Assembly: GCA_017304945.1 (NCBI GenBank)
Contig: JAFKLG010000058.1
Location: 62,001-126,000, forward strand
Source: Rhodospirillales bacterium
GTDB lineage: Bacteria > Pseudomonadota > Alphaproteobacteria > Acetobacterales > Acetobacteraceae
DNA: 64,000 bases
Direction: 5' to 3'
Below are positions 6,141-51,079 of this stretch, piece after piece. The notes under the pieces are model-generated. The model saw only the letters and a list, made by a program, of their open reading frames with translations. It made no database searches and was not told the origin of the DNA. The stretch's first letter is position 1. Each line of letters opens with the position of its first letter. The translations under genes were made by a program, and so were the position numbers.

Positions 6141-6141
6141 C

Positions 6142-10032: not shown

Positions 10033-10089
10033 CAAAAGATTCGGAGGGTCGTGTCGGCACGGTGGACCTTCGCTCGTCCTCGAGGCAGA

Positions 10090-10110
10090 GGTCGGGGATC
10101 GTCCCCGACC
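10090..10110 (+). terminator. Perfect 8-bp hairpin between the Csp-like and VOC genes
   Basis: GGTCGGGG and CCCCGACC flank a five-base loop, about 58 bases after the Csp-like stop and about 8 bases before the ribosome-binding site of the next gene. It could be a terminator without a T tract or a leader hairpin affecting the following gene. Confidence 0.4.
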
Positions 10111-10129
10111 GAAACAGCGAGGAAACGCC

Positions 10130-10609: not shown

Positions 10610-10688
10610 TCGAGGCCGGGGGCCGCCGAGCTCGCGTCGCGCCCCGGCGAGCACCGTCCTGCGGTGCCACCCTCGGCGGCCGCCCCGC

Positions 10689-31042: not shown

Positions 31043-32644
31043 TCACGCCGCCTTCAGCATGAAATCGGCGCAGCGATGGCCGATCAGGATGGCGGGCGCG
31101 TTGGTGTTGCCGCTGGTGATGCGCGGCATGACCGAGGCATCGGCGACGCGCAACCCCTTGATCCCCCGCACGCGCAGCGCACCATCCACCACCGCGGCGA
31201 CATCGCTCTCCGCGCCCATGCGGCAGGTGCCGACCGGGTGGAACATCGTGTCCGCCGTTCGCGCGATCCACGCATCCAGCGCCGCATCGTCCGTGGTGTC
31301 CGCACCGGGCTGCATCTCCGGCCCGCGCACCGGATCGAAGGCCGGCTGGGCGAAGATCTCCCGCAGCAGGCGCACCCCGCGCCGCAGCACCGCGCGGTCG
31401 CGCGGATCGGACAGGTAGTTCGGCCGGATCACCGGGGCCGCCAGCGGATCGGCCGAACGCAGGGTCACCGTCCCGCGGCTTTCGGGCCGCATCTGCGTGA
31501 CGTTGGCCATGAAGCCATGCGCATCGCCTGCCCGCGCGGGACCCGCCAGCCCCGGCACCCGCAGCGTCGCGGTGGTCAGCCCCGGCAGGAAATGGCCCTG
31601 CAGATCGGGCTCCTCCAGCGCCGGGTCGGAGCGGAGCATGAACCCGGCGGCGAGCGGGAAACTGGCCGCCGGTCCCTTGCGGGTGACCAGTGCCTGGATC
31701 AGCGCGAACGCCGCGCGGTCGAGCCGGGTTAGAGATTGCAGCGTGATCGGCTGGGTGCAGGCATGCTCGACGCGGACCAGCAGGTGGTCCTGCAGGTTGC
31801 GCCCGACGCCCGGCGCATCGGCCGCCACGTCGATCCCGTGGCTGCGCAGGTGATCGGCCGGTCCGATGCCGGAGCGCATCAGCAGGGCCGGCGAGTTGAT
31901 GGCGCCGCCGCACAGCACCACCGATCCCGCCTTGAACACGCCGGCGCTGGTCTGCACGCCGATGGCGCGGCCGTTCTCGATCAGGACGCGCAGCGCGTGG
32001 GCTCCGGTGACGATGCGCAGGTTGGGCCGGCCGCGCGCCGGGGACAGCCACGCACGGGCGGCGGACCAGCGCTGGCCGCCGGCGATGGTGAAGTGATAGC
32101 GGCCGACCCCCTCGTAGGGCGGGGCGTTGAAGTCCCCGGACGGCGCGTGGCCGGCCTGCACGCCAGCCTGCACGAAGATATCCAGCAGCGGGTGAGACAC
32201 CGCAGCATCGGTGATCGGCAGTGGGCCAGTGCCGCCATGGTCGGGCGTGGCGCCGTCCTGGAAACGCTCGATGCGGCGGAATGCCGCCAGCGTGTTCTCC
32301 CAGGACCAGTCCTGCAGCCCGGCTTGTGCCCAGGAATCGTAGTCGCTGGGCCGGCCGCGCGCCCAGACCATGCCGTTGATCGATGAGGACCCGCCCAGCA
32401 CCTTGCCGCGCGGCCAGAAGCTGCGCCGGCCAGCGAGATTGGCCTCCGGTTCGGTGTGGTAGAACCAGTTGGCGTAGCGGCTGCGCAGCAGCACGCCAGT
32501 CATCAGCGGCACGCGCAGCAACGGGTTCCAGTCGCGCCCGCCGGCCTCGAGCAGGGTGACCTTGATGCGCGGGTCTTCGCTCAGCCGTGCCGCCAGGACG
32601 CTGCCGGCCGACCCGGCGCCGACCACCAGGACGTCCTCGCTCAT
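31043..32644 (-). CDS. GMC-family FAD oxidoreductase (choline dehydrogenase-like)
   Basis: 533 residues. N-terminal FAD site VVGAGSAGSVLAARLSED with LLEAGG, the GMC signature around GKVLGGSSSINGMVWARG, and the C-terminal FHPVGTCRMG and SGNTNAPAILIG active-site region. Oxidises an alcohol, probably passing electrons to a quinone or cytochrome. No signal peptide. The ATG at 32644 overlaps the stop of the AhpD-like gene at 32641 (ATGA), so they form a two-gene operon; the long in-frame upstream ORF is a shadow of that gene. Confidence 0.92.
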   Translation of the reverse strand: MSEDVLVVGAGSAGSVLAARLSEDPRIKVTLLEAGGRDWNPLLRVPLMTGVLLRSRYANWFYHTEPEANLAGRRSFWPRGKVLGGSSSINGMVWARGRPSDYDSWAQAGLQDWSWENTLAAFRRIERFQDGATPDHGGTGPLPITDAAVSHPLLDIFVQAGVQAGHAPSGDFNAPPYEGVGRYHFTIAGGQRWSAARAWLSPARGRPNLRIVTGAHALRVLIENGRAIGVQTSAGVFKAGSVVLCGGAINSPALLMRSGIGPADHLRSHGIDVAADAPGVGRNLQDHLLVRVEHACTQPITLQSLTRLDRAAFALIQALVTRKGPAASFPLAAGFMLRSDPALEEPDLQGHFLPGLTTATLRVPGLAGPARAGDAHGFMANVTQMRPESRGTVTLRSADPLAAPVIRPNYLSDPRDRAVLRRGVRLLREIFAQPAFDPVRGPEMQPGADTTDDAALDAWIARTADTMFHPVGTCRMGAESDVAAVVDGALRVRGIKGLRVADASVMPRITSGNTNAPAILIGHRCADFMLKAA

Positions 32645-33354
32645 CGGCGGAAGGCGCCCTGGCCGGGCGTCTCGGCCCAGGCACGGAAGCGGGCGGAGGG
32701 CGTGACGGCACCGGCATGCATCAGTTCGAACCAGGTGGTGCAGGCCTCGACGAAGCGATTCACGCCGGCAGGCCAGATGATGAGGCTGAGTGCCTCGACC
32801 AGCTTCTCCTCCGCCACACCGGCCGCGTAGGCGGCGCGGATATGCGCGGCCACGCCCCATTGGCGCCCGAGTGCGGCGTGCACGGCAAGCAGGGCGAGGT
32901 GGCAGGTGGCGTCCGGGATCGAGGGATCGCCCAGCCGGGTGGCGCCGTCGAGATAGGCGGCATGCGGATCGGTTGTCGGGAACCAGTCCTGCCAGTGCTG
33001 GCCCACGAATTCGAACGCCTCGGCCGCGCCGGCATAGCCGGCCAGGCGGAACGCTGCCCGCGCCTGCGCCTCGCTTCCGCCGGCGCCGCGGAACATCTGC
33101 AGATGATGCGTGCCGATCGCTTCTTTCAGCGCGACCAGCAGGGCGAGCCAGACGAACTCCTTCTCGAACGGATCGAGGTGCCGCTGCGTGCGCGTCAACG
33201 CGGCATACATCTGCTCATACGCGGCGTGCAGGTCGGGCGCGGCGGCGGCCAATGCACCGTGATGCGGCAGCAGATAGCCGCGCCCGGCGCGCAGCGCATC
33301 GAGGCGTGCCCGCACCTGTTCGGGCGTTGGCAGGGGGTCGGGGCGGTCGCTCAT
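32641..33354 (-). CDS. Carboxymuconolactone decarboxylase/AhpD-like protein without CxxC, copy A
   Basis: 237 residues, mostly helical, resembling the CMD/AhpD fold. Where AhpD has its redox CxxC, this protein has THHLQMFRGAGG with no Cys pair, so peroxidase activity is unlikely. It opens with the distinctive GRGYLLPHHGAL and shares that motif, EFVWLALL, HIRAAYAAGV and RFVEAC with the protein at 45687-46394. GGAGG lies 5 bases before the ATG. Co-transcribed with the GMC gene and divergent from a methyltransferase-small protein-hydrolase operon whose members also recur. Function unknown. Confidence 0.8.
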   Translation of the reverse strand: MSDRPDPLPTPEQVRARLDALRAGRGYLLPHHGALAAAAPDLHAAYEQMYAALTRTQRHLDPFEKEFVWLALLVALKEAIGTHHLQMFRGAGGSEAQARAAFRLAGYAGAAEAFEFVGQHWQDWFPTTDPHAAYLDGATRLGDPSIPDATCHLALLAVHAALGRQWGVAAHIRAAYAAGVAEEKLVEALSLIIWPAGVNRFVEACTTWFELMHAGAVTPSARFRAWAETPGQGAFRR

Positions 33355-33491: not shown

Positions 33492-34526
33492 ATGGAACTG
33501 TCTCTCGACGAACGCGGGCGGATCGATTTCGTCCTGACACTGCGCCGGCGCTGGGCCGACACCGTCTATCCCGCGCTGCGGGCGCAGTATGATGCCGACC
33601 CGGCCGGCACGGAGCCGGTGCGGGAGGCGGTGCATCGCCAGCCCGCCTATCCCTGGTTCGCCTTCCTGGAGCGCAATGCGCAGAAGATGCTGTGGCGCGA
33701 CGTCTCCGACGTGGTGGCGGCGCATCCGCGCGATGCCGGGACGGAGGCGTCCGGCCCGGCGACGCTGGAGCTGGATCCCAACCTCGAGCTGCCCGACTGG
33801 TACACCGATTGGGACATCCATGTGCAGCCGGGCGGCGTCTGGCGCAACGATGCCTCGGCCGACGTCTACGAACTGGGCGCCAAGCTGGTGATGCTGGGCG
33901 TCAACGACGACTACACGTTCCACCGCGCCTTCACCGAGACCGCGGTGCCGCCTGGGTCGTATCGGCGGATCGTCGACCTGGGCTGCGGCTTCGGCAAGTC
34001 GACCTGGCCGATGAAGCGCGCCTTCCCCGACGCCGAGGTCATCGGCATCGATCTGGCGGAACCCTGCCTGCGCATGGCGCGCGACCGCGCCAATGCGGCG
34101 GGACTGGCGATCCGCTTCATCCAGGCGGATTGCCAGGCGACGGGACTTGAGGCGGGATCGGTCGACTTCCTGATGTCGTCGATGCTCATCCACGAGATGC
34201 CGCGCCCGGCGCTGATCGCGACGTTGCGGGAGGCGGCGCGCATCCTGGCGCCCGGCGGCAAGCTGCGCTTCCTGGATTTCACCACCACCGGCGACGCGTT
34301 CCGCGACCTCGCGATGGCGGAACACGGGGAGCGCAACAACGAGCCATTCATGCCCGGCCTGCTGGCCGCCGACGTCCCGGCGCTGTGCGAGGCCGCGGGC
34401 CTGGCCGGGGCGCGCTGGGTCGCGTTCGACGAGCGCGGCGGCGGCCGGCTGCCCGAAAGATCCTGGCCGAAACGGGCGGAGTGGCATTTCCCCTGGGCCG
34501 TGCTGGAAGCGGAGAAGCCGCAATGA
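33492..34526 (+). CDS. Class I SAM-dependent methyltransferase with N-terminal extension, copy A
   Basis: 344 residues. The SAM-binding core starts near residue 158 with VDLGCGFGKST, an acidic IGIDLAEP and FIQADCQ, then MLIHEMP and LAPGGKLRFLDF. The first 150 residues form a conserved extra domain including YPALRAQY, FLERNAQKM and DIHVQPGGVW. The same extension and the C-terminal NNEPFMP recur in the protein at 51080-52156, which marks one unusual family. Its ATG follows the divergent promoter and its stop overlaps the start of the small partner gene. Methyl acceptor unknown; the context suggests a small carboxylic or nitrogenous catabolite. Confidence 0.85.
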   Translation: MELSLDERGRIDFVLTLRRRWADTVYPALRAQYDADPAGTEPVREAVHRQPAYPWFAFLERNAQKMLWRDVSDVVAAHPRDAGTEASGPATLELDPNLELPDWYTDWDIHVQPGGVWRNDASADVYELGAKLVMLGVNDDYTFHRAFTETAVPPGSYRRIVDLGCGFGKSTWPMKRAFPDAEVIGIDLAEPCLRMARDRANAAGLAIRFIQADCQATGLEAGSVDFLMSSMLIHEMPRPALIATLREAARILAPGGKLRFLDFTTTGDAFRDLAMAEHGERNNEPFMPGLLAADVPALCEAAGLAGARWVAFDERGGGRLPERSWPKRAEWHFPWAVLEAEKPQ

Positions 34527-34819
34527 CCCTGCCCGCGCGCGATCACGCCTATCTGACGCCGGCGACGATCGACCAGGTCGCCGCCATGGTGCTGGAACTG
34601 GCGTCTCAGCTTCACGTCGAGCGGCAACGCCGCATGGCGCTGGAGGCGGTGCTGCGGCGTCAGGGCGTCCTGGCGGACGGCGCGGTGGACGCGATGGTCG
34701 AGGATGAAACGCTCCTGGCCGATGCGCGGGGAGCGCTGGATGCCAATCTGCGTCGCCTGCTGCGTATCATGACGGAGACCGGCGACCCGCGCGGACCGCT
34801 TCGGGCCGAGGCGCTGTGA
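34523..34819 (+). CDS. Small methyltransferase-linked protein, copy A
   Basis: 98 residues, not recognised as a named family. Predicted mainly helical, with AAMVLELASQLHVERQRR then ALEAVLRRQGVL. It is clearly homologous to the 103-residue protein at 50745-51056 (AMIMTLGAELYVVKDRL, ALEVMLAERQVI); both sit beside a methyltransferase of the same rare type. Start and stop both overlap neighbours (ATGA and GTGA). The simplest inference is a regulatory or structural subunit of the methyltransferase. Confidence 0.8.
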   Translation: MTLPARDHAYLTPATIDQVAAMVLELASQLHVERQRRMALEAVLRRQGVLADGAVDAMVEDETLLADARGALDANLRRLLRIMTETGDPRGPLRAEAL

Positions 34820-36483
34820 GCGCGGAGCTCTCCCGGCATTTCATCGATGTCGGCGCGCGGCGGGTGCACTACACGCGCGCCGGATCGGGACCTGCGCTGG
34901 TGCTGCTGCATGAAAGCCCGTGTTCGGCGAAGTCGCTGGAAACCGTGCAGCGCGTGTTTTCCGAACGCTTCACCGTGATCGCGCCCGACACGCCGGGATT
35001 CGGCCTGTCCGATCCCTTGCCGCTGAAACAACCCGAGATCGCCGATTTCGCCGACGCGTTGGCCGAGACGCTGGCTGCGATCGGGGTGGGCAAGGCGGCC
35101 GTGTACGGGCGGCACACCGGCGCCTCGATCGCGGTGGAATATGCTCGCCGACATCCCGATCGCTGTGCCATGGCGGTGGCTGACGGCTACCCGGTCTACT
35201 CGGGGCCGCAGCAGGAAAGCCGGCTCACGGACTACCTGTTGCCGTTGGAGCCGCGCTGGGACGGCGGGCACCTGCTGTGGCTGTGGTTCCGCTACCGCGA
35301 CCAGCACACGTTCTGGCCGTGGCACAATCAGGCCGGGAGCAACCGCGCCGGCTGCGACGTGCCCGACCTGGATTTCCTGCAGCGCGGGGTGATGGAGTTC
35401 CTGGAGGCCGGGGACGGCTACCGCATCGCCTATGCGGCCGCGTTCCGGCATGGCGGCAAGGCACTGGCGCTGCTGCCCGAGTTGCGTGTGCCGACCTGCT
35501 TCGTCGCGCGACCCAGCGACAGCCTGTTCCGCGCGCTGTCCGTGCTGCCGCAGACGGAATGGGTCGAGACGCTGTCGCGCGACGAGGTGACGGCGGCACG
35601 GGAGACGATGGAGCTGCTGCTGCGCCACCCCGCACCGGTGCCGCCACCGGCGCCGCCCACAAATCCTGCGGCCGCCCGGAGCACGCTGCGCATGGTCGGC
35701 CCGCTGCTGTTGCGTAGCGCCGGCGAGGACCGTGGCGGTGTGCCGCTGCTGCTGCTGCACGACCTGCCCGGCAGCTCCGCGCTGCTCGATCCGCTCGTGG
35801 TGGCGCTCGGACAGCATCGTCCGACGCTGGCATTCGACCTGCTCGGGCAGGGCGAGTCGGAGGCGCCGGCCAATGGCAGGATCGATGTCGCGGCCTGGGC
35901 GCACTCGTTGATCGCGGCGCTCGACCGGCTTGGGATCGCGCAGGTGCACGTCTACGGGCATGGCGGCGGCGGAGTTGTGGCGACGGAACTCGCGCTCGCC
36001 GCGCCCGACCGGGTGGCCTCTTTGCTGCTGGGCGCGCCGCCTGCGCTGCCGGCGGAGGAGCGGGAGGCGTTTGCCGCCGGTTATGCGCCCTCGGCCGACC
36101 CGGTGTGGGAGGGCGCGCATCTGCTGCGTGTCTGGCACCATCTGCGCGACCAGGAATTGTGGTGGCCCTGGTACGAGCGCACGGTGGCAAGTGCGCGACC
36201 CGGCACGCTGGACATCGATCCGGCGACGCTGACCCTGCGGGCGCGCGAATGCCTGCGTCACCCGACGCTGTATCAGCCCGTGTGGCAGGCGGTGCTGGCG
36301 TATCCGTTGCGCGAGAAACTGGATCTGCTGCGCGGCCGCGCGGTGGTCCTGGCCGCGGAGCGGGACCTGTTCGCGCGGTTCGCCGCGGATGCGGCGGCTG
36401 CAGTGGGTAGCGACGTGGTGCCGGTCGAGCCGGGCTGGCAGGCACGTGCTACGGCGATCCTGCAACGGACCGCCGAGGTGTAG
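34816..36483 (+). CDS. Tandem-fused alpha/beta hydrolase with non-canonical nucleophile elbows
   Basis: 555 residues containing two alpha/beta-hydrolase domains (about 1-275 and 285-555), starting with GTG overlapping the upstream stop. The first elbow is GRHTG with His100 where Ser is expected; the second is GHGGG, also without Ser. Both have a cap motif: RDQHTFWPWHNQ and RDQELWWPWYER. The single-domain protein at 47928-48770 shares these (GSHTG, RDQYLFWPYYNR). Either this family uses a different nucleophile or the proteins are non-hydrolytic. Last gene of methyltransferase-small protein-hydrolase. Confidence 0.87.
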   Translation: MSAELSRHFIDVGARRVHYTRAGSGPALVLLHESPCSAKSLETVQRVFSERFTVIAPDTPGFGLSDPLPLKQPEIADFADALAETLAAIGVGKAAVYGRHTGASIAVEYARRHPDRCAMAVADGYPVYSGPQQESRLTDYLLPLEPRWDGGHLLWLWFRYRDQHTFWPWHNQAGSNRAGCDVPDLDFLQRGVMEFLEAGDGYRIAYAAAFRHGGKALALLPELRVPTCFVARPSDSLFRALSVLPQTEWVETLSRDEVTAARETMELLLRHPAPVPPPAPPTNPAAARSTLRMVGPLLLRSAGEDRGGVPLLLLHDLPGSSALLDPLVVALGQHRPTLAFDLLGQGESEAPANGRIDVAAWAHSLIAALDRLGIAQVHVYGHGGGGVVATELALAAPDRVASLLLGAPPALPAEEREAFAAGYAPSADPVWEGAHLLRVWHHLRDQELWWPWYERTVASARPGTLDIDPATLTLRARECLRHPTLYQPVWQAVLAYPLREKLDLLRGRAVVLAAERDLFARFAADAAAAVGSDVVPVEPGWQARATAILQRTAEV

Positions 36484-36654: not shown

Positions 36655-37425
36655 CTACAGCCGCTCCGACAGCAGCCGTTCGGCCAGGTTCTTGGTCCAG
36701 CTCACCGCGTGGACCTGTCCGGCGAGCGGCTCGGGCCTGCCCAGCGGTGCCAGTTCCGGCGCGTGCAGATCCAGCGTCGCGGACCCAGAGCGGATCCCGT
36801 CCAGCATCACGTCCTGCATGCGCGCCAGGAACACCTCCCGCAGACAGGACCCGTCGGTCGGATCGGGCAGCACGCGCTCCAGGAAGAAGCCGACGAAGGG
36901 CGGCTGTTCGATCGGTGGCGGCCCGTCGCGCTCCAGCGTGACGGACAAGGACAGCACCGGCGTGCCGAGACGGGACACGCGCCCGGTCGCGCGATCCCCT
37001 GCCTGCCACCCACGGATCGGGTGCGGCGGCGTCATGTCGATGCGGCCGAGGCGCTGCGGCCAACCGTAGAACTCCCGCCCGACGGCTAGCTCCGCATCCG
37101 AGTCGGTCCACAGGAACGGGTCCCAGAAGCCGACGCGCCCCTCATGCGCGACGGCGATGCCGACGACACATTCGCGGAAGCAGGACTCGGCCGGGTTGGC
37201 CTGGGCCCAGTCCCAGCCGCGGCCCAGGTCGCAGAACAGGTCATGCACCGAGAAGCGCACTACCGGCTCCCCCCATGGCGTCAGCGGCGCCGGCGTCAGC
37301 GCGGCGATGCCGGCGGCGTCGCAACGGGCCAGCACGGTGATGCTGCGGCCGGCGAAATGCCACGGCGGGGCATCGTAGAGCGCGGCGCGGCCGGTGGGAT
37401 CGCGCGGCGTGACGAAGCCCATCAT
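36655..37425 (-). CDS. Acetoacetate decarboxylase-like protein missing the Schiff-base lysine
   Basis: 256 residues of the ADC fold: ALTPAPLTPWGEPVVRFS, then GREFYGWPQRLGRID at about 116-130. In true acetoacetate decarboxylases this region carries adjacent lysines in an F/Y-P-K-K context, one of which forms the Schiff base; here it is P-Q-R. The enzyme is therefore unlikely to be a classical decarboxylase and may be an aldolase-dehydratase-like or other homologue. ATG 37425 overlaps the stop of the AllA-like gene. Last gene of the ABC transporter operon. Confidence 0.83.
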   Translation of the reverse strand: MMGFVTPRDPTGRAALYDAPPWHFAGRSITVLARCDAAGIAALTPAPLTPWGEPVVRFSVHDLFCDLGRGWDWAQANPAESCFRECVVGIAVAHEGRVGFWDPFLWTDSDAELAVGREFYGWPQRLGRIDMTPPHPIRGWQAGDRATGRVSRLGTPVLSLSVTLERDGPPPIEQPPFVGFFLERVLPDPTDGSCLREVFLARMQDVMLDGIRSGSATLDLHAPELAPLGRPEPLAGQVHAVSWTKNLAERLLSERL

Positions 37426-37979
37426 GGCAGCTCGACCTCCAGCGTCACACCACAGCGCGCCAGCATGTCCTTCTTGTCGAGGTCCGGTCCCTGTGCCTCG
37501 TTCCCCTGCTTCTGCCGCAGGTCGCGCACCGTGTCGCGTCGGATCAGCACCACCACGTCGGTGTCGGCCTGCAGCGCCATGGGGAATTCGTGCCAGGTGC
37601 CGAGGCGCAGCGAGAACCCGGCGCTGCCGTCGAACAGCAGCGCCCGCACGTCGTTCAGGTCCGGAATCTCCGCGTCGGGCGTGGGTGGCGCCAGTACCAG
37701 CAGGAACGGCCTGCCGCCCAACGGAATGAAGGTCTGGGTGTGCAGGAAGTGACGCTCCATCCAGCTCACCCGCAGGGGGCGCGGCTGGATGGTTGCCACC
37801 GAAACTTCCAGCGTGTCGTCGGTGACGAACTGCGCGACCGGCTTGCGCAGCTTCACCGCCTCGCCATAGAACGCGCTGCCGGTGACCGGGCCGAGCGCGG
37901 CGGAGCCGACCCACCAGCCGAAATCCGCGGTATTCTCAGGCGTGGCGGGTTCGGCGCGCAGCCGGTGCAGCGTGGTCAT
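37422..37979 (-). CDS. Ureidoglycolate lyase (AllA)-like cupin protein
   Basis: 185 residues. The family pattern is visible: HFLHTQTFIPLGGRPFLLV, then LLFDGSAGFSLRLGTWHEFP and DVVVLIRRDT, corresponding to the AllA cupin core. AllA splits ureidoglycolate to glyoxylate and urea. No other allantoin gene is certain nearby, although a PuuE-like deacetylase and HyuAB occur in the cluster, so a related ureide or a different acid may be the substrate. GAGGAG precedes the ATG. Eleven bases downstream of the ABC ATPase gene, in the same operon. Confidence 0.85.
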   Translation of the reverse strand: MTTLHRLRAEPATPENTADFGWWVGSAALGPVTGSAFYGEAVKLRKPVAQFVTDDTLEVSVATIQPRPLRVSWMERHFLHTQTFIPLGGRPFLLVLAPPTPDAEIPDLNDVRALLFDGSAGFSLRLGTWHEFPMALQADTDVVVLIRRDTVRDLRQKQGNEAQGPDLDKKDMLARCGVTLEVELP

Positions 37980-37990: not shown

Positions 37991-38962
37991 TCACGCCGCG
38001 ATGCGGTTGCTGCCGTCGATCAGGCGCACGCAGGCGGCCGTCTGTCCCGGGCCGGCGGAGAGCAATGGTGGCCGGCCGATGCGGCACTGCTTCTCCACCA
38101 GCGGGCAGCGGGTCTGGAACGGACAGCCGGTGATGCGGTCGAGCGGCGAGGGAATCTCGCCCTCGAGCCGGATGCGCTTCGGGCGCTCCCTGGGATCGGC
38201 CGGCAGATGCGCGGACAAGAGCGCCTGGGTGTAGGGATGCGCGGGGCGATCCATCACCGCCTCGGTCGGGCCTTCCTCCAGCACGCGGCCGAGATACAGC
38301 ACGGCCACGCGATCAGCGATCAGGCGCAGCGTGGCAAGGTCGTGCGTGATGAACACCATCGACACGGCAGTCTCCGCACGCAACTCGCCAAGCAGGTCCA
38401 GGATGCCGGCGCGCACGGAGAGGTCGAGCGAGGAGGTGGGCTCATCCAGCACGATCAGAGATGGCCTGGTGGCGATGGCGCGGGCGATGCACACGCGCTG
38501 CAACTGTCCGCCCGAGAGTTCCGCCGGCGTGCGGTCGAGTTGCGCCGCGGCCAGGTGCACGCGTTCGGCCAGTCGTTCTGCTTCCGTGCGGCGCGCGGCG
38601 CGCCCAAGCTGCGTGTGCAGCTTCAGCGGTTCCTCGATCAGGCGGCGGATCGACATGCGCGGGTTGAGCGCCGACCACGGATCCTGGAACACCATCGACA
38701 TCCGCGCGCGCAGCTTGCGCAGCCGGCGTTCGGGCCAGTCGGTGATATCGTCGCCGTCCAGCGCGACGCGGCCGCCGGTCGGCTGCAGCAGCCGCAGCAG
38801 GCAGCGGCCCAGCGTCGACTTGCCCGATCCGGACTCGCCGACCAGGCCCAGCACCTCGCCCTCGTGGACGAGCAGGTCGACCTTGTCGAGCGCATGCACC
38901 GCCCCGGCCCCTTCACCGAAGCGCATGTCCAGCCCGGCGAGTTCGGCGACGACGCGGGTCAT
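37991..38962 (-). CDS. ABC transporter ATP-binding protein, OppF/DppF type
   Basis: 323-residue inner-face ATPase of a peptide-type importer. Walker A GESGSGKST near 44-52, FQDPWSALNPR, signature ELSGGQLQR, Walker B LIVLDEPTSSLD and H-loop ITHDL, followed by the oligopeptide-family C-terminal extension with CPFQTRCPLVEKQCR. Start overlaps the stop of the OppD-type gene. Works with the neighbouring OppD, OppC, OppB and binding protein. Confidence 0.95.
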   Translation of the reverse strand: MTRVVAELAGLDMRFGEGAGAVHALDKVDLLVHEGEVLGLVGESGSGKSTLGRCLLRLLQPTGGRVALDGDDITDWPERRLRKLRARMSMVFQDPWSALNPRMSIRRLIEEPLKLHTQLGRAARRTEAERLAERVHLAAAQLDRTPAELSGGQLQRVCIARAIATRPSLIVLDEPTSSLDLSVRAGILDLLGELRAETAVSMVFITHDLATLRLIADRVAVLYLGRVLEEGPTEAVMDRPAHPYTQALLSAHLPADPRERPKRIRLEGEIPSPLDRITGCPFQTRCPLVEKQCRIGRPPLLSAGPGQTAACVRLIDGSNRIAA

Positions 38963-39945
38963 GCCTCGGCCTCGGCGGGCTCGCGCGCGAAATGGCAGGC
39001 GGCGCGCTGGTCGCCAACCTGCGCCAGCGGCGGCGCGGACCGGCACACATCCCGGGATCGGTCGCAGCGCAGGCGGTAGCAGCAGCCTTCCGGTAGGGCG
39101 TAGAGGTTGGGTGGCGGTCCGCCCAGGCGCAGGCCGGCGCCCAGCCGCAGCCGTTCCGGCGTCGCGGCCAGCAGTGCCTGGGTGTAGGGATGCATCGGCC
39201 GGGGGAAGACCTCGGCAACGGGGCCCTGCTCCACCACGGAGCCGGCGAACATCACCGCCACGTCGTCGCAGTACTGCGCGACCACGCCCAGGTCATGCGT
39301 GACGATGATCGCCCCGATGCCGCGCCCGCGCACCGCTGCCGAGAGCAGGTCGAGGATCTGCGCCTGCACCGTCACGTCCAGGGCGGTGGTCGGTTCGTCG
39401 GCGATCAGCAGGTCGGGCTCGTTTACCAGCGCCAGCGCGATCACCACGCGCTGTGCCATGCCGCCGGAGAATTCGTGCGGCCAGGCGGCCAGTCGGCGTT
39501 TCGGATCGGGAATGCTGACCGCGGCCAGGATCGCCTCGGCCCGTTCCATCGCTTCCCGCCGGCTGCGCCTGGCATGGGCCCGCTGCACGCGCACGAGCTG
39601 CTCGCCCACGCGCGCCAGCGGATCCAGCGAGGCCTTGGCGGACTGCACGACGAAGCCGATGCGGTTGCCGCGCAGCGCGCTGCGTTCGCTGGCCGACATG
39701 GCCAGCAGGTCCCGCCCCTGGAACAGCGCGCGGCCGGCGACGACGCGGGCGGGCGGGTGCAGCAGGCCGAGGATCGAGGTGACCGTCAGGGACTTGCCCG
39801 CGCCGCTCTCGCCGACCAGGCCCAGGATGCGGCCCTTCTGCAGCGTGAAGCCGACGCCGTTCAGCGCGCGGGCCGTGCGGATGCGATCGTCGCGATCCCG
39901 GGTGACGAAATGCGTGTGCAGGTCGGAGACTTCGAGCAGGCTCAT
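38959..39945 (-). CDS. ABC transporter ATP-binding protein, OppD/DppD type
   Basis: 328 residues. Walker A GESGAGKSL, signature EFSGGMAQR, Walker B LLIADEPTTALD and ITVTHDL-type switch (IIVTHDL). The C-terminal Cys-rich region CCYRLRCDRSRDVC is typical for oligopeptide ATPases. The last Walker A residue is Leu after Lys-Ser, which is common in OppD proteins. ATGA overlaps on both sides show tight coupling with OppC and OppF genes. Confidence 0.95.
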   Translation of the reverse strand: MSLLEVSDLHTHFVTRDRDDRIRTARALNGVGFTLQKGRILGLVGESGAGKSLTVTSILGLLHPPARVVAGRALFQGRDLLAMSASERSALRGNRIGFVVQSAKASLDPLARVGEQLVRVQRAHARRSRREAMERAEAILAAVSIPDPKRRLAAWPHEFSGGMAQRVVIALALVNEPDLLIADEPTTALDVTVQAQILDLLSAAVRGRGIGAIIVTHDLGVVAQYCDDVAVMFAGSVVEQGPVAEVFPRPMHPYTQALLAATPERLRLGAGLRLGGPPPNLYALPEGCCYRLRCDRSRDVCRSAPPLAQVGDQRAACHFAREPAEAEA

Positions 39946-40826
39946 CCCGCGCTCCGCCGACGCGGGTCGAGCAGGTCGGCGAGCCCATCGCCGGTCATGT
40001 TGAGCGCGAGCGACAGCAGGATCAGCGCGATGCCGGGGAAGACGCCGATCCACCACTGGCCGGTGACCATGTATTCCGCGCCCTGGCGGATCATCGCGCC
40101 CCATTCGGGCGTGGGCGGCTGGATGCCCAGGCCGAGGAAGGCGAAGGTGGTCGACAGCCGCACCGCCCAGGACGCGCGCACCGCCGCCTGGGCCAGCGTG
40201 CCTTGCAGCGTGTTGGGCATCAGGTGCACGAGCAGGATGCGCCAGACCGGATTGCCGGTGGCGACCGCGCATTCCACCAGTGAGCCGGAGCGCAGCGCCA
40301 GCACCTCCGACCGCACCAGGCGCGCGAACACCGGCGCATCCAGCAGGCCCAGCACCAGCACGACGTTCACGACGGACGCGCCGGCGGCGGAGACGACGGC
40401 CAATGCCAGGATGATCGAGGGGAACACCCGCAGCGCGTCGAAGAAGCGCATCAGCACCTCATCCGTCCAGCCGCCGAGATAGCCGGTTACCAGGCCGACC
40501 GGCACACCGACCAGGATCGCCAGCGCGACCGCGGGCAGGGCGATGGCGAAGGCGTAGAGCGTGCCGAAGATGACGCGCGAGAACACGTCCATCCCGTTCG
40601 CGTCGGTGCCGAACCAATGCGCCTGCGACGGCGCTTGCAGCACGGCTGCGGCGTCAGCGGCGACCGGGTCATAGGGCATGATCAGCGGCGCCAGCACCGC
40701 CAGCAGCGCGAAGGCCGCGAGCAGCAGCACCCCCGCCGCGGCGAGCGGGCTGCGCCGTGTCCAGGCGCGCAGCCGGTGCGGCAGGACGAAGCGGCGCGGG
40801 GCCGGCAGGGTCGCGGCGTGGCTCAT
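39942..40826 (-). CDS. ABC transporter permease, OppC/DppC type
   Basis: 294-residue inner-membrane permease. N-terminal helix AAAGVLLLAAFALLAVLAPL, the OppC-type extracytoplasmic segment HWFGTDANGMDVFSRVIFG, and the EAA loop near ECAVATGNPVWRILLVHLMP. About six transmembrane helices. Overlaps the OppB stop by four bases. Confidence 0.94.
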   Translation of the reverse strand: MSHAATLPAPRRFVLPHRLRAWTRRSPLAAAGVLLLAAFALLAVLAPLIMPYDPVAADAAAVLQAPSQAHWFGTDANGMDVFSRVIFGTLYAFAIALPAVALAILVGVPVGLVTGYLGGWTDEVLMRFFDALRVFPSIILALAVVSAAGASVVNVVLVLGLLDAPVFARLVRSEVLALRSGSLVECAVATGNPVWRILLVHLMPNTLQGTLAQAAVRASWAVRLSTTFAFLGLGIQPPTPEWGAMIRQGAEYMVTGQWWIGVFPGIALILLSLALNMTGDGLADLLDPRRRSAG

Positions 40827-41839
40827 GCGCGTCCAGCCCGCGGTTCCAGGACCAGGACCAGCAGGTCCACGGCGAGGAACACGACGACGGAGAACACCGC
40901 CAGCAGCAGCACATAGCCCTGCACCACGGCGAAGTCGCCCTTGACGATCGCATCGAGGCCGAACTGACCGGTGCCGCCCCAGGCAAACACGTATTCGATC
41001 AACGACCCGCTGCCGACCAGGCCCACCAGCTCCGCGCCGATGAAGGTCACCACCGGGGTTGCCGCATTGCGCAGCGCGATCCGCGCGATGGTGCGGGGCG
41101 GGAGTCCCTGCGCCTCGGCATAGGCGATCGGCGGCGAACTCAGCACGCTCAGCGCGATCGCGCGGGTCTGGGCGATGATCGGTGCGGCGCAGAGGATGGC
41201 GATGCTGGCAACCGGCAGCACGAGTTGCGCGGCGGCGGACTGTGCCGTTTCCCATCGGCCGGCGAACAGCGCATCCAGCAGGAAGCTGCCGGTCACGCGC
41301 GGCGGTGGATCGAGCATCAACGACAGGCGGCCCATCCCCGGCGGCGCCCATTCCAGCACGTAGAAGAAGATCAGCAGCAGCGCGAGGCCCAGGAAATAGG
41401 TCGGGACAGAGAAACCCAGCAGCGAGATCAGCCGCGCCGCATGATCGAAGCCGCGGCCACGCCGCAAGGCCGAGATCAGACCCACCGGCACGCCGACCAG
41501 CGCGCCGATCAGCACGCCCAGGACGAGCAATTCCAAGGAGGCCGGCGCGCGGTCGACCAGCTCCGCCAGCACCGGTCGGTTGGAGATCCAGGAGTGCCCG
41601 AGGTCGCCGTTCAACACCCGGCCCAGCCAGATCAGGAACTGCACCGGCAGCGGGCGATCGAGACCGTACTGCGCGCGCAGCCGCGCGATCTCGTCCGCCG
41701 TCGCCGTCGGCCCTGCCAGCATCGCGCTCGGGTCCTGCCCGCCCAGGCGCAGCAGCACGAACGTGCCCAGCGCCACCACGAACAGCAGCGGGACCAGCAG
41801 GACCAGCCGACGCAGCAGGAATGGCAGGGCGCGGCGCAC
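40823..41839 (-). CDS. ABC transporter permease, OppB/DppB type
   Basis: 338 residues beginning with GTG, two bases after the binding-protein stop. First helix FLLRRLVLLVPLLFVVALGT, then the OppB-type LGGQDPSAMLAGP and YGLDRPLPVQFLIWLG, and the EAA-like YAEAQGLPPRTIARIALRNA. Forms the membrane channel with OppC. Confidence 0.94.
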   Translation of the reverse strand: MRRALPFLLRRLVLLVPLLFVVALGTFVLLRLGGQDPSAMLAGPTATADEIARLRAQYGLDRPLPVQFLIWLGRVLNGDLGHSWISNRPVLAELVDRAPASLELLVLGVLIGALVGVPVGLISALRRGRGFDHAARLISLLGFSVPTYFLGLALLLIFFYVLEWAPPGMGRLSLMLDPPPRVTGSFLLDALFAGRWETAQSAAAQLVLPVASIAILCAAPIIAQTRAIALSVLSSPPIAYAEAQGLPPRTIARIALRNAATPVVTFIGAELVGLVGSGSLIEYVFAWGGTGQFGLDAIVKGDFAVVQGYVLLLAVFSVVVFLAVDLLVLVLEPRAGRA

Positions 41840-41841
41840 GA

Positions 41842-43419
41842 TCAGCCGACCTTGAGGTCGACCCAGCGCTCCTGGTCATCGGGATGCGGCACCCAGCCCG
41901 ACACCGCCGGCGCCATGGCCTCGAACACGTCCGGGTAGACGGTCAGGATCCAGGGCGCGTCAGCCATCCACAGCTTCTGCGCGTCGTGCATCAGCGCGGT
42001 GCGCTTGCCCATGTCCAGCGTCACCCGCGCCTCGCCGATGAGCTTGTCGAGTTCGGGGTTCTTGTAGCGCATCCGATTCGACACCCCGTTCGACATCGTC
42101 AGCAGCGACATGGTGTAGACCGGATCAAGCACGATCGGCCCGTCCTCGAAGGTGAAGAACGGGATGTCCTGCTTGCCGGGTGCGCTGCGGGCCCGCATGT
42201 CGGAGGCGGGGATGCGCTGCAACTTCGCCGTGACGCCGACCGCCTTCAACTGGTCGGCCACCTGCACCGCCATCTGTTCCTCCCACCAGACGATGTCGGA
42301 GAAGGTCAGCTCGACGTCGAGCCCGTTGGCGTAGCCGGCCTCGGCCAGCAGCGCCTTGGCCTTGGCGGGATCATGGCCATAGGCGAATAGCGAGGGATCG
42401 GCGCCCGCGACGATCGGCGGGATCACCGTCCCGGCGTCCTGGCCGGTGCCCAGCAGCACCGCCTGGCGCAGCTTGTCGCGGTCGATGGCGAAGTTGAAGG
42501 CCCGGCGGACGCGCACGTCGTCGAACGGCTTGACGCTGTTGTTCATGCGCACCGAGCACATGGCGCGGCCGTCGGCCTGCTGCACCTTGACCCGCTTGTC
42601 CTTCTGCATGTCGATGACCTGCTGAACATTCGGGCGGTCGATCCACTGCACCTGCTGGCTGCGCAGCAGCGCCACGCGGGAGGCGCCGGACGGCACGGCG
42701 CGGTAGATCACCTTCTGGAAATACGGCGCACCGCGGAAGTAGTTGGGGTTGGCGACGAACACCGCCTGCTGGCCCGGCTGCACCGATTCGACGTGATAGG
42801 CGCCGAAGCCCGCGCTGTTGGTCTCCAGCCATTTCAGCCCCCACGGATCCTCGGCCGTGACGTGCTTCTTCATCTCGGTGCTGTCGTAGATGCCGGGCGT
42901 GTACAGCGTCAGGCAGGACAGGAAGATCGAGGACGGCGCCGACAGCGTGAACTCCACCTCACGCGGCGACAGTGCCTTCACGCCGGTGACGTTGGCGACG
43001 CCGGCGATGAACGCACCGGTGCGCTTCTGGGCGAAGCTCTTCTGCCAGCCCCATTCGACGTCGGCCGCGGTCAGTTCGTTGCCGAACGGGCTCTTCACCC
43101 CGCTGCGCAGCGTGAACACCCAGCGCAGCCCGTCCTCGGAGGGCTTCCAGCTCTCCGCCAGGTGGCCCTCGATGCGGTTCGGATCGAGATAGGTCCGGCC
43201 GTTGCGTTCCACCCGCGCATAGCGCGTCAGGCCCTCGTAGATCTGCGTCACCGTCTCCTGCGTGCCGGGGCGCAGCGCATCGCCGTCGAACCCCTCGGGC
43301 GTGCCGGGCGCCGCGAGCAGCATGGTGCGCGTCTGCTGCGCCTGCAGGGTGCGGCTGGTGAGTGGCAGGTAGGTCGCGGCGGTCGCGCCCGCGAGTAGGG
43401 TCCGGCGGCGAAGTTTCAT
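41842..43419 (-). CDS. ABC transporter substrate-binding protein, family 5
   Basis: 525-residue periplasmic binding protein. N terminus MKLRRRTLLAGATAATYLPL is a Tat/Sec-type signal, cleaved near LQA-QQ. SBP_bac_5 features include RWVFTLRSGVKSPFGNELTA. ATG 43419 has GAGGAG 6 bases upstream; the longer in-frame ORF is rejected. First gene of binding protein-OppB-OppC-OppD-OppF-AllA-like-ADC-like. The genes for processing proteins at the operon end imply the imported ligand is an organic acid or ureide rather than a peptide. Confidence 0.92.
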   Translation of the reverse strand: MKLRRRTLLAGATAATYLPLTSRTLQAQQTRTMLLAAPGTPEGFDGDALRPGTQETVTQIYEGLTRYARVERNGRTYLDPNRIEGHLAESWKPSEDGLRWVFTLRSGVKSPFGNELTAADVEWGWQKSFAQKRTGAFIAGVANVTGVKALSPREVEFTLSAPSSIFLSCLTLYTPGIYDSTEMKKHVTAEDPWGLKWLETNSAGFGAYHVESVQPGQQAVFVANPNYFRGAPYFQKVIYRAVPSGASRVALLRSQQVQWIDRPNVQQVIDMQKDKRVKVQQADGRAMCSVRMNNSVKPFDDVRVRRAFNFAIDRDKLRQAVLLGTGQDAGTVIPPIVAGADPSLFAYGHDPAKAKALLAEAGYANGLDVELTFSDIVWWEEQMAVQVADQLKAVGVTAKLQRIPASDMRARSAPGKQDIPFFTFEDGPIVLDPVYTMSLLTMSNGVSNRMRYKNPELDKLIGEARVTLDMGKRTALMHDAQKLWMADAPWILTVYPDVFEAMAPAVSGWVPHPDDQERWVDLKVG

Positions 43420-43645: not shown

Positions 43646-43689
43646 ATCTGCAAGAATTTGCGCCACATCGCAGCGCCGAGGCAGCCCGC

Positions 43690-45690
43690 ATGACCCTGAC
43701 CGAATCCGACGCCGATCCGGCGCTGCTTCCCGGCGCGGCCCGCTACCCCTCGGTCTTCCGCCCCATCGAGCTGGGGCCGGTTCGGCTGCGCAACCGCATC
43801 TTCGTCCCCGCCCACACCACCAATTTCGGCGAGGACAACCTGCCGAGCGAACGGCATCTGGCGTATCATCGGGCCCGCGCGCGGGGCGGCGTCGGAATGA
43901 TCGTATTCGAGGGCATCCGCGTCCATCCGTCGAGCCTCGGGCGCCGGCAAGGGGTGAACGGCTACGACCCGGCCTGCATCTCCCGATTTGCCGCGATTGC
44001 ACGCGCGGTGCAGCAGGACGGGGCGAAGCTGTTCGGCCAGATCATCCATCTCGGCCGGCACATCGACGGCAACTACGCGCGGATGGCCGCCTGGTCGGCG
44101 AGCGCCGTGCCGTGGACGCCGCTCGCCGCGCCGCCGCATCCGATGACGGTGGCGGAGATCGGCCAGGTGGTGGCCGCGCATGCCGATGTCGCCAGGCACC
44201 TGATGGAGGCGGGGCTGGACGGCGTCGAGGTGACGCTGGCGCACGGGCATCTGCTGCAGCAGTTCCTCTCGCCCGCGGTGAATCGGCGCAGCGACGCCTA
44301 TGGCGGGCCGGTGGAGAACCGCATGCGCATGGCGCTGGAGGCGGTGGCCGCGGTGCGCGCGGCGGTGGGAGACGCGATCGCGGTCGGCGTACGCATCTCC
44401 GCCGACGAGTTCCTGGAGGGCGGGCTGACGCTGGCCGACATGCAGGACGTGATCGTGCGGCTGGCCGGGGCGGTGAAGCTCGACTTCGTCAACGTCTCGC
44501 ATTCCGCCTACCACGGCAGCGCCACCATCAGCACCCAGATGGCCGACATGGCGTTCGAGCCGGATGCGTTCCGGCACCTGCCGCGCGGCATCGCGACCGC
44601 GCTCGGGGGAAGCGTGCCGGTGTTCGCGGTGTGCCGCTTCCGCACGCTGGCCGAGGCCGAGACGATGCTGCAGGACGGCGAGATCGCCATGGTCGGCATG
44701 GCGCGCGCGCACATCGCCGACACCGCGCTGGTGCGCAAGGCGGCCGAGGGGCGGGAGGACGCGACGCGCCCCTGCATCGCCTGCAACCAGGGCTGCACCG
44801 GCTTCCTGGCGCAGTCGCTGCCGATCACCTGCCTGAGCAATGCGGCGATGGGACGCGAGACGGAGTGGCCGTTGCCCGCCCCCGCGGTCTTGGGGATGCG
44901 GCAGGCTGTGGCCGTCATCGGCGGCGGGCCCGCCGGGATGGAGGCCGCGCTGGTGGCCGCCGAACGCGGCCACGCGGTCACGCTGTGGGAGGCCTCGACC
45001 GAGACCGGCGGCGCGCTGCGCCACAGCCTGGCCATGCCGAAGCGGCGCGATTTCGGCCTGCTGCTGGACTATCAGCGTCGCGCGGTGGAGCGTGCGGGCG
45101 TCACGCTGCGCCTGGGCGAGCGAGCCGATGCCACTTCGGTCGCCGGCTTCGATGCGGTGGTGGTGGCGACCGGAGCGCGACCCGCCGCGGCGGCGCTGCC
45201 CGGTGGCGGCACGCCGCTCACCATGGAGGCCGCTCTGGCCGATCCCGACGCGCTGGGCGCGCATGTCGCGGTGCAGGACCTGCTGGGAAGCTGGGCGATG
45301 ACCGGGCTGATCGAGTTCCTGGCCGATAGCGGCCGGCAGGTGACCGTGATCGCGCCCACCGGCACGCCCGGATGGCAGATGAGCATCTACTCCTCCTTCG
45401 CCTGGCGGAAGCGATTGCGCGACCGGCGCGTGCGCATCCTCGGCCTGCGCAGCGTGCAGTCCTTCGCCGATGGCGCGCTGGTGCTGCAGGATGCCTCCAC
45501 CGGCGACACCGAATGTCTGGAGGGCGTGGACTCGCTGATCGCCCCCGCGGTGGGCATCCCCAATGATGCGCTGGTGCCGGTGCTGTCCGGCAATGCCGCG
45601 CGGCCGGTGCTGCCGGTGGGCGACTGCGTCGCCGCGCGATCGGCGCTGGAAGCGATCTTCGAAGGCCATCAGGCAGGGCGGACTTTATGA
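43690..45690 (+). CDS. Old yellow enzyme/2,4-dienoyl-CoA reductase-type flavin oxidoreductase with FeS and FAD domains
   Basis: 666 residues. N-terminal FMN TIM barrel (NRIFVPAHTTNFGED, GVEVTLAHGHLLQQFLSPAV with RSDAYGG), a 4Fe-4S site CIACNQGCTG near 362-371 plus a further Cys in ITCLSN, then an FAD/NAD domain with VIGGGPAGMEAAL near 409. The layout is that of FadH, trimethylamine dehydrogenase and N-demethylases such as those for stachydrine or dimethylglycine. Start at 43690 has GAGG 8 bases upstream; an ATG at 43642 lies inside the repeated promoter element. The AhpD-like gene overlaps the stop. Confidence 0.93.
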   Translation: MTLTESDADPALLPGAARYPSVFRPIELGPVRLRNRIFVPAHTTNFGEDNLPSERHLAYHRARARGGVGMIVFEGIRVHPSSLGRRQGVNGYDPACISRFAAIARAVQQDGAKLFGQIIHLGRHIDGNYARMAAWSASAVPWTPLAAPPHPMTVAEIGQVVAAHADVARHLMEAGLDGVEVTLAHGHLLQQFLSPAVNRRSDAYGGPVENRMRMALEAVAAVRAAVGDAIAVGVRISADEFLEGGLTLADMQDVIVRLAGAVKLDFVNVSHSAYHGSATISTQMADMAFEPDAFRHLPRGIATALGGSVPVFAVCRFRTLAEAETMLQDGEIAMVGMARAHIADTALVRKAAEGREDATRPCIACNQGCTGFLAQSLPITCLSNAAMGRETEWPLPAPAVLGMRQAVAVIGGGPAGMEAALVAAERGHAVTLWEASTETGGALRHSLAMPKRRDFGLLLDYQRRAVERAGVTLRLGERADATSVAGFDAVVVATGARPAAAALPGGGTPLTMEAALADPDALGAHVAVQDLLGSWAMTGLIEFLADSGRQVTVIAPTGTPGWQMSIYSSFAWRKRLRDRRVRILGLRSVQSFADGALVLQDASTGDTECLEGVDSLIAPAVGIPNDALVPVLSGNAARPVLPVGDCVAARSALEAIFEGHQAGRTL

Positions 45691-46394
45691 GCAACGAGAC
45701 GACCGACGACCTGGCGCAGCGCCTGGAGGCGGTGCGCGCCAAGCGCGGCTACCTGCTGCCGCATCACGGCCTGCTGGCGCTGGCGTTCCCCGATCTGCTG
45801 GCGGGCTACGCCGCGGCCTACAGCGCGATGGCGCTCGCCGACCGCGTGCTGTCGCATCACGACCGGGAGTTCGTGTGGCTGGCGGTGCTGGCGGCCACGG
45901 ATGAGTCGCTGGCGACGCATCACATCACGAAGTTCCGCGCGGCCGGTGGCACCGACGCGACGATGGAGGCCGCGTTCGCCGCCTGCGCGCTGGCGATCGG
46001 CGCCGAGGCCTATGACTTCGCCGCGCGCGACTGGTCGGCGCAGTTGCAGCCCTGGAATCCGCAGGCGGCCTATCTGCGCGGCGTGCGCGCGCTGGCGCCG
46101 CTGCGGCTGGTGCACCTGGCACAATGCGCGGTGCATGTCTGCCGCGCCCGCTGGCGGTTGCTGGGCTGGCAGTTGCGCGCGGCCTATGAGGACGGCGTGC
46201 CGGAGGACGAGATCGCCGAGGCGCTGACGCTGGCGATGTTCCCCGGCTCCATTCCGCGCTTCGTCGAGGCGTGCCGCGTGTGGCTCGAGTTGATCCAGGA
46301 CGGCACGCTGCCGGCCTCTCCCCGCTACCAGGCCTGGGCGCGGCTTGCCGGCCAGGGCGGGCACGATGAGGCGATGGCTGGCAAGCCTGAGTGA
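45687..46394 (+). CDS. CMD/AhpD-like protein without CxxC, copy B
   Basis: 235 residues, paralogue of the protein at 32641-33354. Shared landmarks are KRGYLLPHHGLL, REFVWLAVL, HHITKFRAAGG (in place of the AhpD CxxC region), LRAAYEDGV and RFVEACRVW. No catalytic Cys pair. Translationally coupled to the OYE gene (ATGA), whereas copy A is coupled to a GMC oxidoreductase; both copies thus accompany a flavoprotein. It may be a decarboxylase, isomerase or a scaffold; unknown. Confidence 0.8.
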   Translation: MSNETTDDLAQRLEAVRAKRGYLLPHHGLLALAFPDLLAGYAAAYSAMALADRVLSHHDREFVWLAVLAATDESLATHHITKFRAAGGTDATMEAAFAACALAIGAEAYDFAARDWSAQLQPWNPQAAYLRGVRALAPLRLVHLAQCAVHVCRARWRLLGWQLRAAYEDGVPEDEIAEALTLAMFPGSIPRFVEACRVWLELIQDGTLPASPRYQAWARLAGQGGHDEAMAGKPE

Positions 46395-46561: not shown

Positions 46562-47287
46562 TCACCGCGCACAGTACCCCCCATCCACCAGCATGTCCGA
46601 CCCCGTCATGAACGATGCGCGATCGGAGGCGAGGAACAGCGCGGCCTCCGCGATCTCCTCCACGCGGCCCAACCGGTTGAGCAGATGCAGCGGCGCCAGC
46701 GCCGCCTCGGCCGCCGCGACGGAGCCGAACGTGCCGGCCACGCGCGCGGTGCCCACCGCGCCCGGGGACAGGCTGTTCACGCGGATGCCCTGCGCCGCGT
46801 GATCGATCGCCAGCGCCTTGCTGTAGGCGATCAGCGCACCCTTGGTGGCCGAGTAGACCGTGCGCCCCGCGGCGGAGACGCTGCCAAGCTGCGAGGCCAT
46901 GTTGATGATGGACCCACCTGACGGCATCAGCGGAATCGCGAAGCGGCAGGTGTGGTAGGCGGCCGTCAGGTTGATCGCGATCGCCTCATCCCACTCCGCC
47001 GGCGCAAGATTGGTGACCGGCGCGCGGCGGGTGTTCGCCGCGGCATTGTTCACCAGCACATGCACGACGCCCGCCTCCGCGGCGATGCGCGCGAACGCGG
47101 CCTCGATCTGCGCCGCATCGCCCAGGTCGAGCACGATCGAGGTGACGGAAGCCATCTCGGGCGGGGCGAACCGGTCGAGCGCGTAGAGCCGTGCGCCTGC
47201 CTCGACGAAGCGGCGCAGCATGGCCTGGCCGATGCCGCCGGCGGCGCCGGTGATGACGCAGACGCGGCCGTCGAGATCGCCGGCCAT
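46562..47287 (-). CDS. SDR-family oxidoreductase
   Basis: 241 residues. Cofactor motif TGAAGGIG near 13-20, NNAAA in the NNAG position, catalytic ASQLGSVSAAG and YSATK, and C-terminal LVDGGYCAR. An Asp after strand 2 (YALDRF) suggests NAD(H). ATG 47287 overlaps the stop of the upstream unknown gene by one base. Last gene of the operon FAD protein-hydrolase-unknown-SDR. Confidence 0.91.
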   Translation of the reverse strand: MAGDLDGRVCVITGAAGGIGQAMLRRFVEAGARLYALDRFAPPEMASVTSIVLDLGDAAQIEAAFARIAAEAGVVHVLVNNAAANTRRAPVTNLAPAEWDEAIAINLTAAYHTCRFAIPLMPSGGSIINMASQLGSVSAAGRTVYSATKGALIAYSKALAIDHAAQGIRVNSLSPGAVGTARVAGTFGSVAAAEAALAPLHLLNRLGRVEEIAEAALFLASDRASFMTGSDMLVDGGYCAR

Positions 47288-49441: not shown

Positions 49442-49581
49442 GGGCATCCTTCCGCGACTGTGCCGGGCAACGAGGCAATGGGCGGCGATCCGCCCAACCC
49501 CGGTCGGGCCTCTGCCGCGTCGATGGGCAATTCTGGCCGACGTCGTGGTTTTCCTGTTGGCGGGTTGGCAAACTGCGCCTA

Positions 49582-49605
49582 AAGTTGTGCCATCATGCAT
49601 ACAGG
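49582..49605. promoter_or_regulatory. Shared promoter element between FAD and TRAP operons
   Basis: AAGTTGTGCCATCATGCATA then CAGG. AGTTGT and CATNCATACAGG match the two parts of the element at 33413-33441. It lies in the divergent spacer about 140 bases from each start codon. Confidence 0.35.
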
Positions 49606-49737
49606 TTCGCAAGCGTTCCCCAGCCATGCATCTTCCGTAGCCATGCGGTTCCGCAGGCGGACCAAGATCGTTCCGCGAGGTCTGCGCGCTTGTCGGCTTC
49701 ATTCGTGCCCGCTCCCGAAACTCCTTGAGGCTTGCTG

Positions 49738-50718: not shown

Positions 50719-50744
50719 GCCGCGCCACGATCGGAGGATCCAGC

Positions 50745-51056: not shown

Positions 51057-51079
51057 CGCCGGACGGGAGGGGACAGAGG

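Follow-up and report, generated by a model that had tools for sequence, protein, structure and literature searches.

The acetoacetate decarboxylase (ADC) fold is a textbook example of catalysis through a Schiff base on a single lysine, and two glutamates, Glu61 and Glu76, also have roles in acetoacetate decarboxylase. The structure 3bh2, which we take to be the Clostridium acetobutylicum enzyme, carries Lys115 and Lys116 in the motif YPKKLG. Two further proteins with this fold are distinguished by their entry titles: the Streptomyces bingchenggensis aldolase-dehydratase (4zbo, 4zbt, 6eej) is not a plain decarboxylase, and MppR of enduracididine biosynthesis (4jm3-4jme) is not a decarboxylase. 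Both retain a lysine at the corresponding site, and Lys122 (4zbo/6eej), Lys156 (MppR) and Lys115 (ADC) are presumably the Schiff-base lysines; the title of 4zbt reports a Schiff-base complex. Another member of the ADC family, CLA-DC of Lactiplantibacillus plantarum, is described as shifting a double bond into conjugation with a ketone, ahead of an enone reductase; the passages on it give a hydratase, a short-chain dehydrogenase and CLA-ER as its partners and name no importer or GMC oxidase (PMC11719350, PMC13365329).

We analysed a stretch of 64,000 nucleotides from a Rhodospirillales bacterium (contig JAFKLG010000058.1), here called the window, that encodes an ADC-fold protein, P0001, in which Gln-Arg replaces the Lys-Lys pair. 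The genes around it are the following.

31043..32644, minus strand: GMC oxidoreductase (PF00732 170.3 bits, PF05199 146.4 bits)
32641..33354, minus strand: second CMD-family protein (PF02627 58.2 bits)
33492..34526, plus strand: class I methyltransferase (PF13649 78.9 bits)
34523..34819, plus strand: 98-aa protein, no Pfam match at 0.001; its gene overlaps the methyltransferase gene; relatives in loci L030 and L049
34816..36483, plus strand: double alpha/beta hydrolase (PF00561, two stretches)
36655..37425, minus strand: ADC-fold protein P0001, 256 aa (PF06314 109.9 bits), Gln124-Arg125 replacing Lys-Lys
37422..37979, minus strand: AllA-like protein P0002, 185 aa (PF04115 70.5 bits), overlapping P0001 by 4 nt
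37991..38962, minus strand: second ABC ATP-binding protein, oligopeptide type (PF00005 121 bits, PF08352 63.8 bits)
38959..39945, minus strand: first ABC ATP-binding protein, oligopeptide type (PF00005 99.3 bits, PF08352 50.4 bits)
39942..40826, minus strand: ABC permease C (PF00528 99 bits, PF12911 29 bits; scanned 39942-40829)
40823..41839, minus strand: ABC permease B (PF00528 98.6 bits)
41842..43419, minus strand: family 5 solute-binding protein (PF00496 262.7 bits)
43669..45690, plus strand: flavoprotein of the old-yellow-enzyme (OYE) / 2,4-dienoyl-CoA reductase type (PF00724 212.6 bits)
45687..46394, plus strand: CMD-family protein (PF02627 38.8 bits)

P0001 and P0002 stand at the end of an oligopeptide-type ABC operon, as an earlier note on this DNA had described: the TGA of P0002 overlaps the ATG of P0001 by 4 nt (ATGA), and upstream of the two lie five genes on the same strand that encode two ABC ATPases with the oligopeptide C-terminal domain, two permeases and the family 5 binding protein. 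Among solved structures, the binding protein best matches heme- and dipeptide-binding proteins, which are too distant to name its ligand. The best solved match of the OYE flavoprotein is the 2,4-dienoyl-CoA reductase 1ps9, and the GMC oxidoreductase is 47% identical to that of locus L052.

The match of P0001 to PF06314, the ADC domain family, lies well above the cut-off of 29.8 bits and is its sole Pfam match. An AlphaFold2 run with four input sequences (from the window, L032, L033 and L034) gave one confident model among five, with a mean pLDDT of 83.7 and a pTM of 0.83; the remaining four average 58-70 in pLDDT. Foldseek gave 24 matches at E <1e-3, every one of them an ADC-type entry. Structural alignment with VIA-align, the source of the Z scores given here, also showed weak matches to cyclases and 25-phosphosteroid lyase (Z about 6-7). 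P0001 is thus predicted to have the ADC fold. Its best structural match is Swit_4259 of Sphingomonas wittichii (5upb; Z 28.2, rmsd 2.5 over 246 residues, 25% identity), which differs in having a PKK motif and in having Ile where the relatives of P0001 described below have Lys245. MppR (Z 28.1), the aldolase-dehydratase (Z 26.9) and acetoacetate decarboxylase (3bh2, Z 23.7) have the fold in common with P0001, and the last also has the Glu76 equivalent in common with it. The aldolase-dehydratase is the best PDB match by sequence (E 3e-15). Against the NCBIfam model for MppR, TIGR04460, P0001 scores 55.7 bits, under the cut-off of 380.

The earlier note had read Y-G-W-P-Q-R in P0001 in place of P-K-K, and the alignments bear this reading out. 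With HMMER, GWPQRLG of P0001 aligns with GFPKKLG of 4zbo/6eej (K122 by count) and with GMPKQFG of MppR (K156); in a profile of 18 relatives, the same site meets YPKKLG of 3bh2 (K115-K116). Since the motif aligns with three lysine motifs, Gln124 occupies the position of the Schiff-base lysine and Arg125 that of the next residue, so that Gln124-Arg125 take the place of Lys115-Lys116 of ADC. The only lysine in P0001 is Lys245, which sits in the last strand of the model. The earlier note had named another lysine in the Schiff-base position as what would speak against its reading, and Lys245 is a candidate for that lysine.

P0001 belongs to a clade of 18 distinct proteins (support 100/99) on a stem of 1.42 changes per site; the tree program warns that the joins of some long branches, this stem included, may be false, which touches where the clade attaches. 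Copies are left out of the set (L032 = L030; L067 = L033). The members come from three families of the search tool and from Acuticoccus mangrovi, and the taxonomy of the genomes that are named points to the Alphaproteobacteria. Genome counts are lower bounds, a limited number of candidates having been scored per genome. Among 299 genomes of the window's order, a close relative was found in the source genome and in G247 (68% identity), and 23 more genomes match weakly (E 3e-14 or worse) through other ADC types. A draw of 385 genomes from the class holds clade members in at least five (G000, G326, G456, G527, G630) and other ADC types in four further matching genomes, and a draw of 398 genomes from the phylum added no clade member. 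Searching the families of G326 (10 genomes) and G527 (23 genomes) yielded more members, and three loci were added by a contig scan with a single sequence.

Position 124 is Gln in 17 of the 18 clade members and Met in one, the longest-branched, which retains Lys245; it is Lys in none. The absence of the lysine is not a matter of chance, because 17 relatives were found and in none is Lys present at 124. The claim that decarboxylation by the known mechanism is unlikely stands on this ground. At position 125, the place of Lys116 of ADC, the clade has Arg in 14 proteins, Lys in two, and His and Met in one each. Lys115, Lys116 and Glu61 of acetoacetate decarboxylase are not kept: the equivalent of Glu61 is Ser59 in P0001 and Ser (16) or Thr (2) across the 18, and the position of Arg29 is Arg in just 8 of the 18. 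The fold and the kept Glu76 equivalent would fit an ordinary acetoacetate decarboxylase able to work with Gln at 124, yet the Lys115, Glu61 and Arg29 positions make such an enzyme extremely unlikely. Invariant in all 18 are Arg57, Cys65, Glu85 (which aligns with Glu76 of ADC), Arg117, Glu118 and Glu224; Lys245 and Trp243 are each present in 17. The second gene of L045 encodes a clade member with Met245, and its tandem neighbour retains Lys. In nine chosen pairs of relatives dN/dS is 0.07-0.29, and in two pairs that include the window gene it is 0.27 and 0.46, the ratios being rough in the four of these 11 pairs where dS exceeds 1. The clade is under purifying selection, and a decayed gene is ruled out by this selection together with the invariant residues.

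Among the ADC-type proteins compared, Lys245 occurs only where Lys124 is absent. We aligned 72 distinct proteins of this type, which remained of 129 hits in the loci once identical stretches had been merged. Lys124 is present in 48, and none of these has Lys245, although one is gapped at 245 and one (L141) is poorly aligned there. Among the 24 that lack Lys124, 17 have Lys245, 16 of them with Gln124 and one with Met124. The seven with lysine at neither place comprise three GFPQK proteins, two YGWPAH/YGWPAN proteins, one GYPRK protein and the clade member with Met245. Fisher's test on this split gives 3e-11, a value that overstates the case because the tree places all 18 in one clade; on the tree, the exchange of lysines counts as one evolutionary event and not as 72 tests.

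Where Lys245 would point was judged from alignments. By HMMER, with middling confidence, it corresponds to position 283 (Glu) of the MppR chain. The structural alignments end with residue 255 of P0001 on 295 of MppR and residue 254 on 263 of 4zbo, and an ungapped count back from these ends would put residue 243 of P0001 on 283 of MppR and 252 of 4zbo. We take Glu283 of MppR and Tyr252 of 4zbo to be active-site residues. Lys245 would then fall either on this active-site position or two places further on, facing the same side of the strand. Within the last strand residues 243 and 245 stand out by entropy (0.31 each), but the odd/even contrast is too weak to bear on which way the strand faces. 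A literature search on MppR or Glu283 gave nothing of use among the matches listed.

These observations are consistent with several readings. The one we tentatively prefer, at somewhat short of an even chance, is that P0001 is catalytically active, represents a clade of its own within the ADC fold, does not decarboxylate by the ADC route any more and uses Lys245 in the role of Lys115. The importer would bring in an organic compound; the GMC oxidase and the OYE would act on an alcohol or ketone and on a conjugated double bond; and the ADC-like enzyme would carry out a carbonyl step between or beside them without loss of CO2, for example the movement of a double bond into conjugation or the removal of water. 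Lys245, on the strand taken to line the pocket, would replace Lys115 either as an amine or as a group that polarises the carbonyl, and the AllA-like protein would be an optional extra of the same pathway. CLA-DC is the closest precedent found for such an enzyme order: compared by description and gene context, a similar order of GMC oxidase, ADC-like enzyme and OYE could hold here. A more specific form, in which the catalytic lysine has moved so that Lys245 on the last barrel strand forms the Schiff base of a reaction other than decarboxylation (enone isomerisation or dehydration), as part of a degradation pathway that is linked to the importer and was matched to no known one, is possible but doubtful.

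Lys245 may instead only hold a salt bridge. The strongest competing explanation, to which we give roughly one chance in three, is that P0001 works in the same pathway without any Schiff base, by acid-base chemistry of Glu85, Arg57, Cys65, Arg117 and Glu118, Lys245 having a structural or carboxylate-binding role. These five residues are kept in 18 of 18 members, more strictly than Lys245 itself, and ADC-type proteins with lysine at neither place exist, such as those with YGWPAH or YGWPAN; what argues for a role of Lys245 in the preferred reading is its occurrence, among the 72 proteins, only where Lys124 is absent, and its presence in 17 of the 18 clade members. It is unlikely that P0001 has lost its enzymatic function and serves, without catalysis, as a ligand-binding or partner protein. 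The catalytic lysine is gone, and in three genomes (L008, L011, L018) a GFPQK ADC gene adjoins a GFPKK copy, so that loss of the lysine can accompany a partner role. However, a search of the source genome at E 0.001 found P0001 as its sole PF06314 protein, with no second one to serve as partner, and the many invariant residues over a deep clade, together with purifying selection, speak against loss of function.

The preferred reading draws further on gene neighbourhood. We compared 16 stretches around clade genes (the window slice 26656-47425; others of 3-21 kb) with 20 control stretches by tblastn at 1e-8. The controls are PF06314 loci of 8-20 kb from genomes of the window's order; each contains a Lys-type copy, and in three a GFPQK copy is present as well. 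The window is one of the 16 and the source of most queries. Permease B was found in 7 of 16 clade stretches (6 of 15 without the window, at 56-69% identity) against 0 of 20 controls, a contrast that, like those following, is favoured by queries derived from the clade and controls from a single order, with some stretches coming from sister genomes. The binding protein was found at 51% identity or more in 6 of 16, with two more at 25%, against none of the controls; its relatives in five other clade stretches are 51-76% identical (query 41842-43410). The OYE (7/16, L034 and L049 at 34-35%), the methyltransferase (7/16, four at 30-32%) and a GMC oxidoreductase (8/16: the window, L030, L034, L049, L050, L052, L053 and L072, counting a match to any of three queries, from L030, L034 and L052) were likewise each found in 0 of 20 controls. 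ABC ATP-binding proteins were found in 5 of 16 at 57% or more, and in 3 of 20 controls at 32-42%.

The neighbourhood is recurrent but not constant: the OYE, permease B and the methyltransferase are each missing from 9 of 16 stretches. Of the nine that lack the OYE, six are 3-14 kb in length, but the others are long stretches: L033 (18 kb), L051 (19 kb) and L054 (20 kb). In L033, L068, L069 and L070, four stretches of 8-18 kb from one genus, no importer, OYE, GMC or methyltransferase was found; two of the four show 25% binding-protein matches. Across the 299 genomes of the order, the binding protein occurs at 60% identity or more in six, including both that carry the clade (chance 3e-4). Taken together, the gene neighbourhoods support a link between the importer and the ADC-like gene. 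Among the literature matches listed, nothing concerned a lysine-less ADC clade or this gene combination, and a published map of the superfamily may include the clade.

The earlier note had both genes acting on the imported ligand, and on this point the ADC-like gene and the AllA-like gene part company. For the first, the permease B counts are in favour. For the second, the co-occurrence whose loss the earlier note had taken as a refutation failed: only the window has an AllA-like sequence close to the ADC-like gene (1/16 clade stretches, 0/20 controls). Matches to PF04115 do occur in 11 of the 13 genomes with clade members, and outside the source genome, where P0002 is the sole match, all are on contigs other than that of the clade gene; several of the clade contigs are short, so that more distant AllA-like genes cannot be placed. 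The genomes G247 and Acuticoccus mangrovi, both with the ADC-like gene, have no PF04115 match. A fixed ADC-AllA pair as a general rule is ruled out by the neighbourhoods (1/16) and by the 2 of 13 genomes without PF04115. As an explanation of P0001, a two-gene unit with P0002 is very unlikely. The ATGA overlap in the window speaks for such a unit, as does L114 of genome G215, where the operon of this importer closes with an AllA-like gene 66% identical to P0002; against it stand the single neighbourhood, the two genomes that have the ADC-like gene without PF04115, and G215 itself, which has the AllA-like gene without a listed ADC-like match, being absent from the 25 genomes of the order that have one.

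P0002 nevertheless probably has an optional place in the same pathway, because the operon of this importer in L114 includes an AllA-like gene 66% identical to it. There the operon runs on through an OYE gene, a CMD gene and the AllA-like gene, and a gene of the dihydrodipicolinate-synthase type comes next. P0002 exceeds the PF04115 cut-off of 23 bits and falls under the cut-off of all eight NCBIfam ureidoglycolate lyase models that it matched (best 63.2 bits, against 212). A search for allantoicase (PF03561) found no match in the source genome, nor in any control genome. The L114 locus (1516-12035), in which the importer operon is accompanied by two OYE genes, a CMD gene and the AllA-like gene and no ADC-like gene was seen, is a natural comparison for the role of each gene.

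P0001 and its relatives are a real, conserved variant of a known fold and not a new kind of system. The variant is of interest because it lacks the catalytic residue by which the family is defined and has a candidate to replace it: a lysine-less clade with another lysine possibly facing the same pocket offers a direct test of relocation of a catalytic lysine within a fold. The clade also marks a recurrent neighbourhood of ABC importer, OYE, GMC oxidase, CMD protein and methyltransferase. Annotation of clade genes as acetoacetate decarboxylase, or of P0002 as ureidoglycolate lyase, is probably wrong.

Other lysine-less ADC-type proteins were seen in the same searches. Three loci from the window's family (L008 1102-2939, L011 1453-2966, L018 1411-3080) have a GFPKK and a GFPQK ADC gene in tandem, and their GFPQK proteins group together as one clade (support 100/99). 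The pairing of an active with a lysine-less ADC may represent a heteromer. A second such pair, with GYPRK and GFPKK, is found at L055 (8707-10434) in another part of the tree. A further ADC-type group without the lysine, in L040/L057 and L041, carries YGWPAH or YGWPAN and has no lysine at 245 either.

Several further features of the window recur. The window has two sets of a methyltransferase gene, a small ORF and an alpha/beta hydrolase gene, at 33492-36483 and at 47928-52156; one set lies by the ABC importer and the other by a DctP-type binding protein, a pairing with transporters that looks meaningful. A 207-aa protein without a Pfam match (47287-47910) is related to a protein of L052, which in turn has kin near the ADC-like gene in L034, L050 and L053. 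For a hydantoinase B/A-type pair (25713-29401), relatives were found close to the Acuticoccus mangrovi ADC-like gene (60-64%) and in L030 (29-35%).
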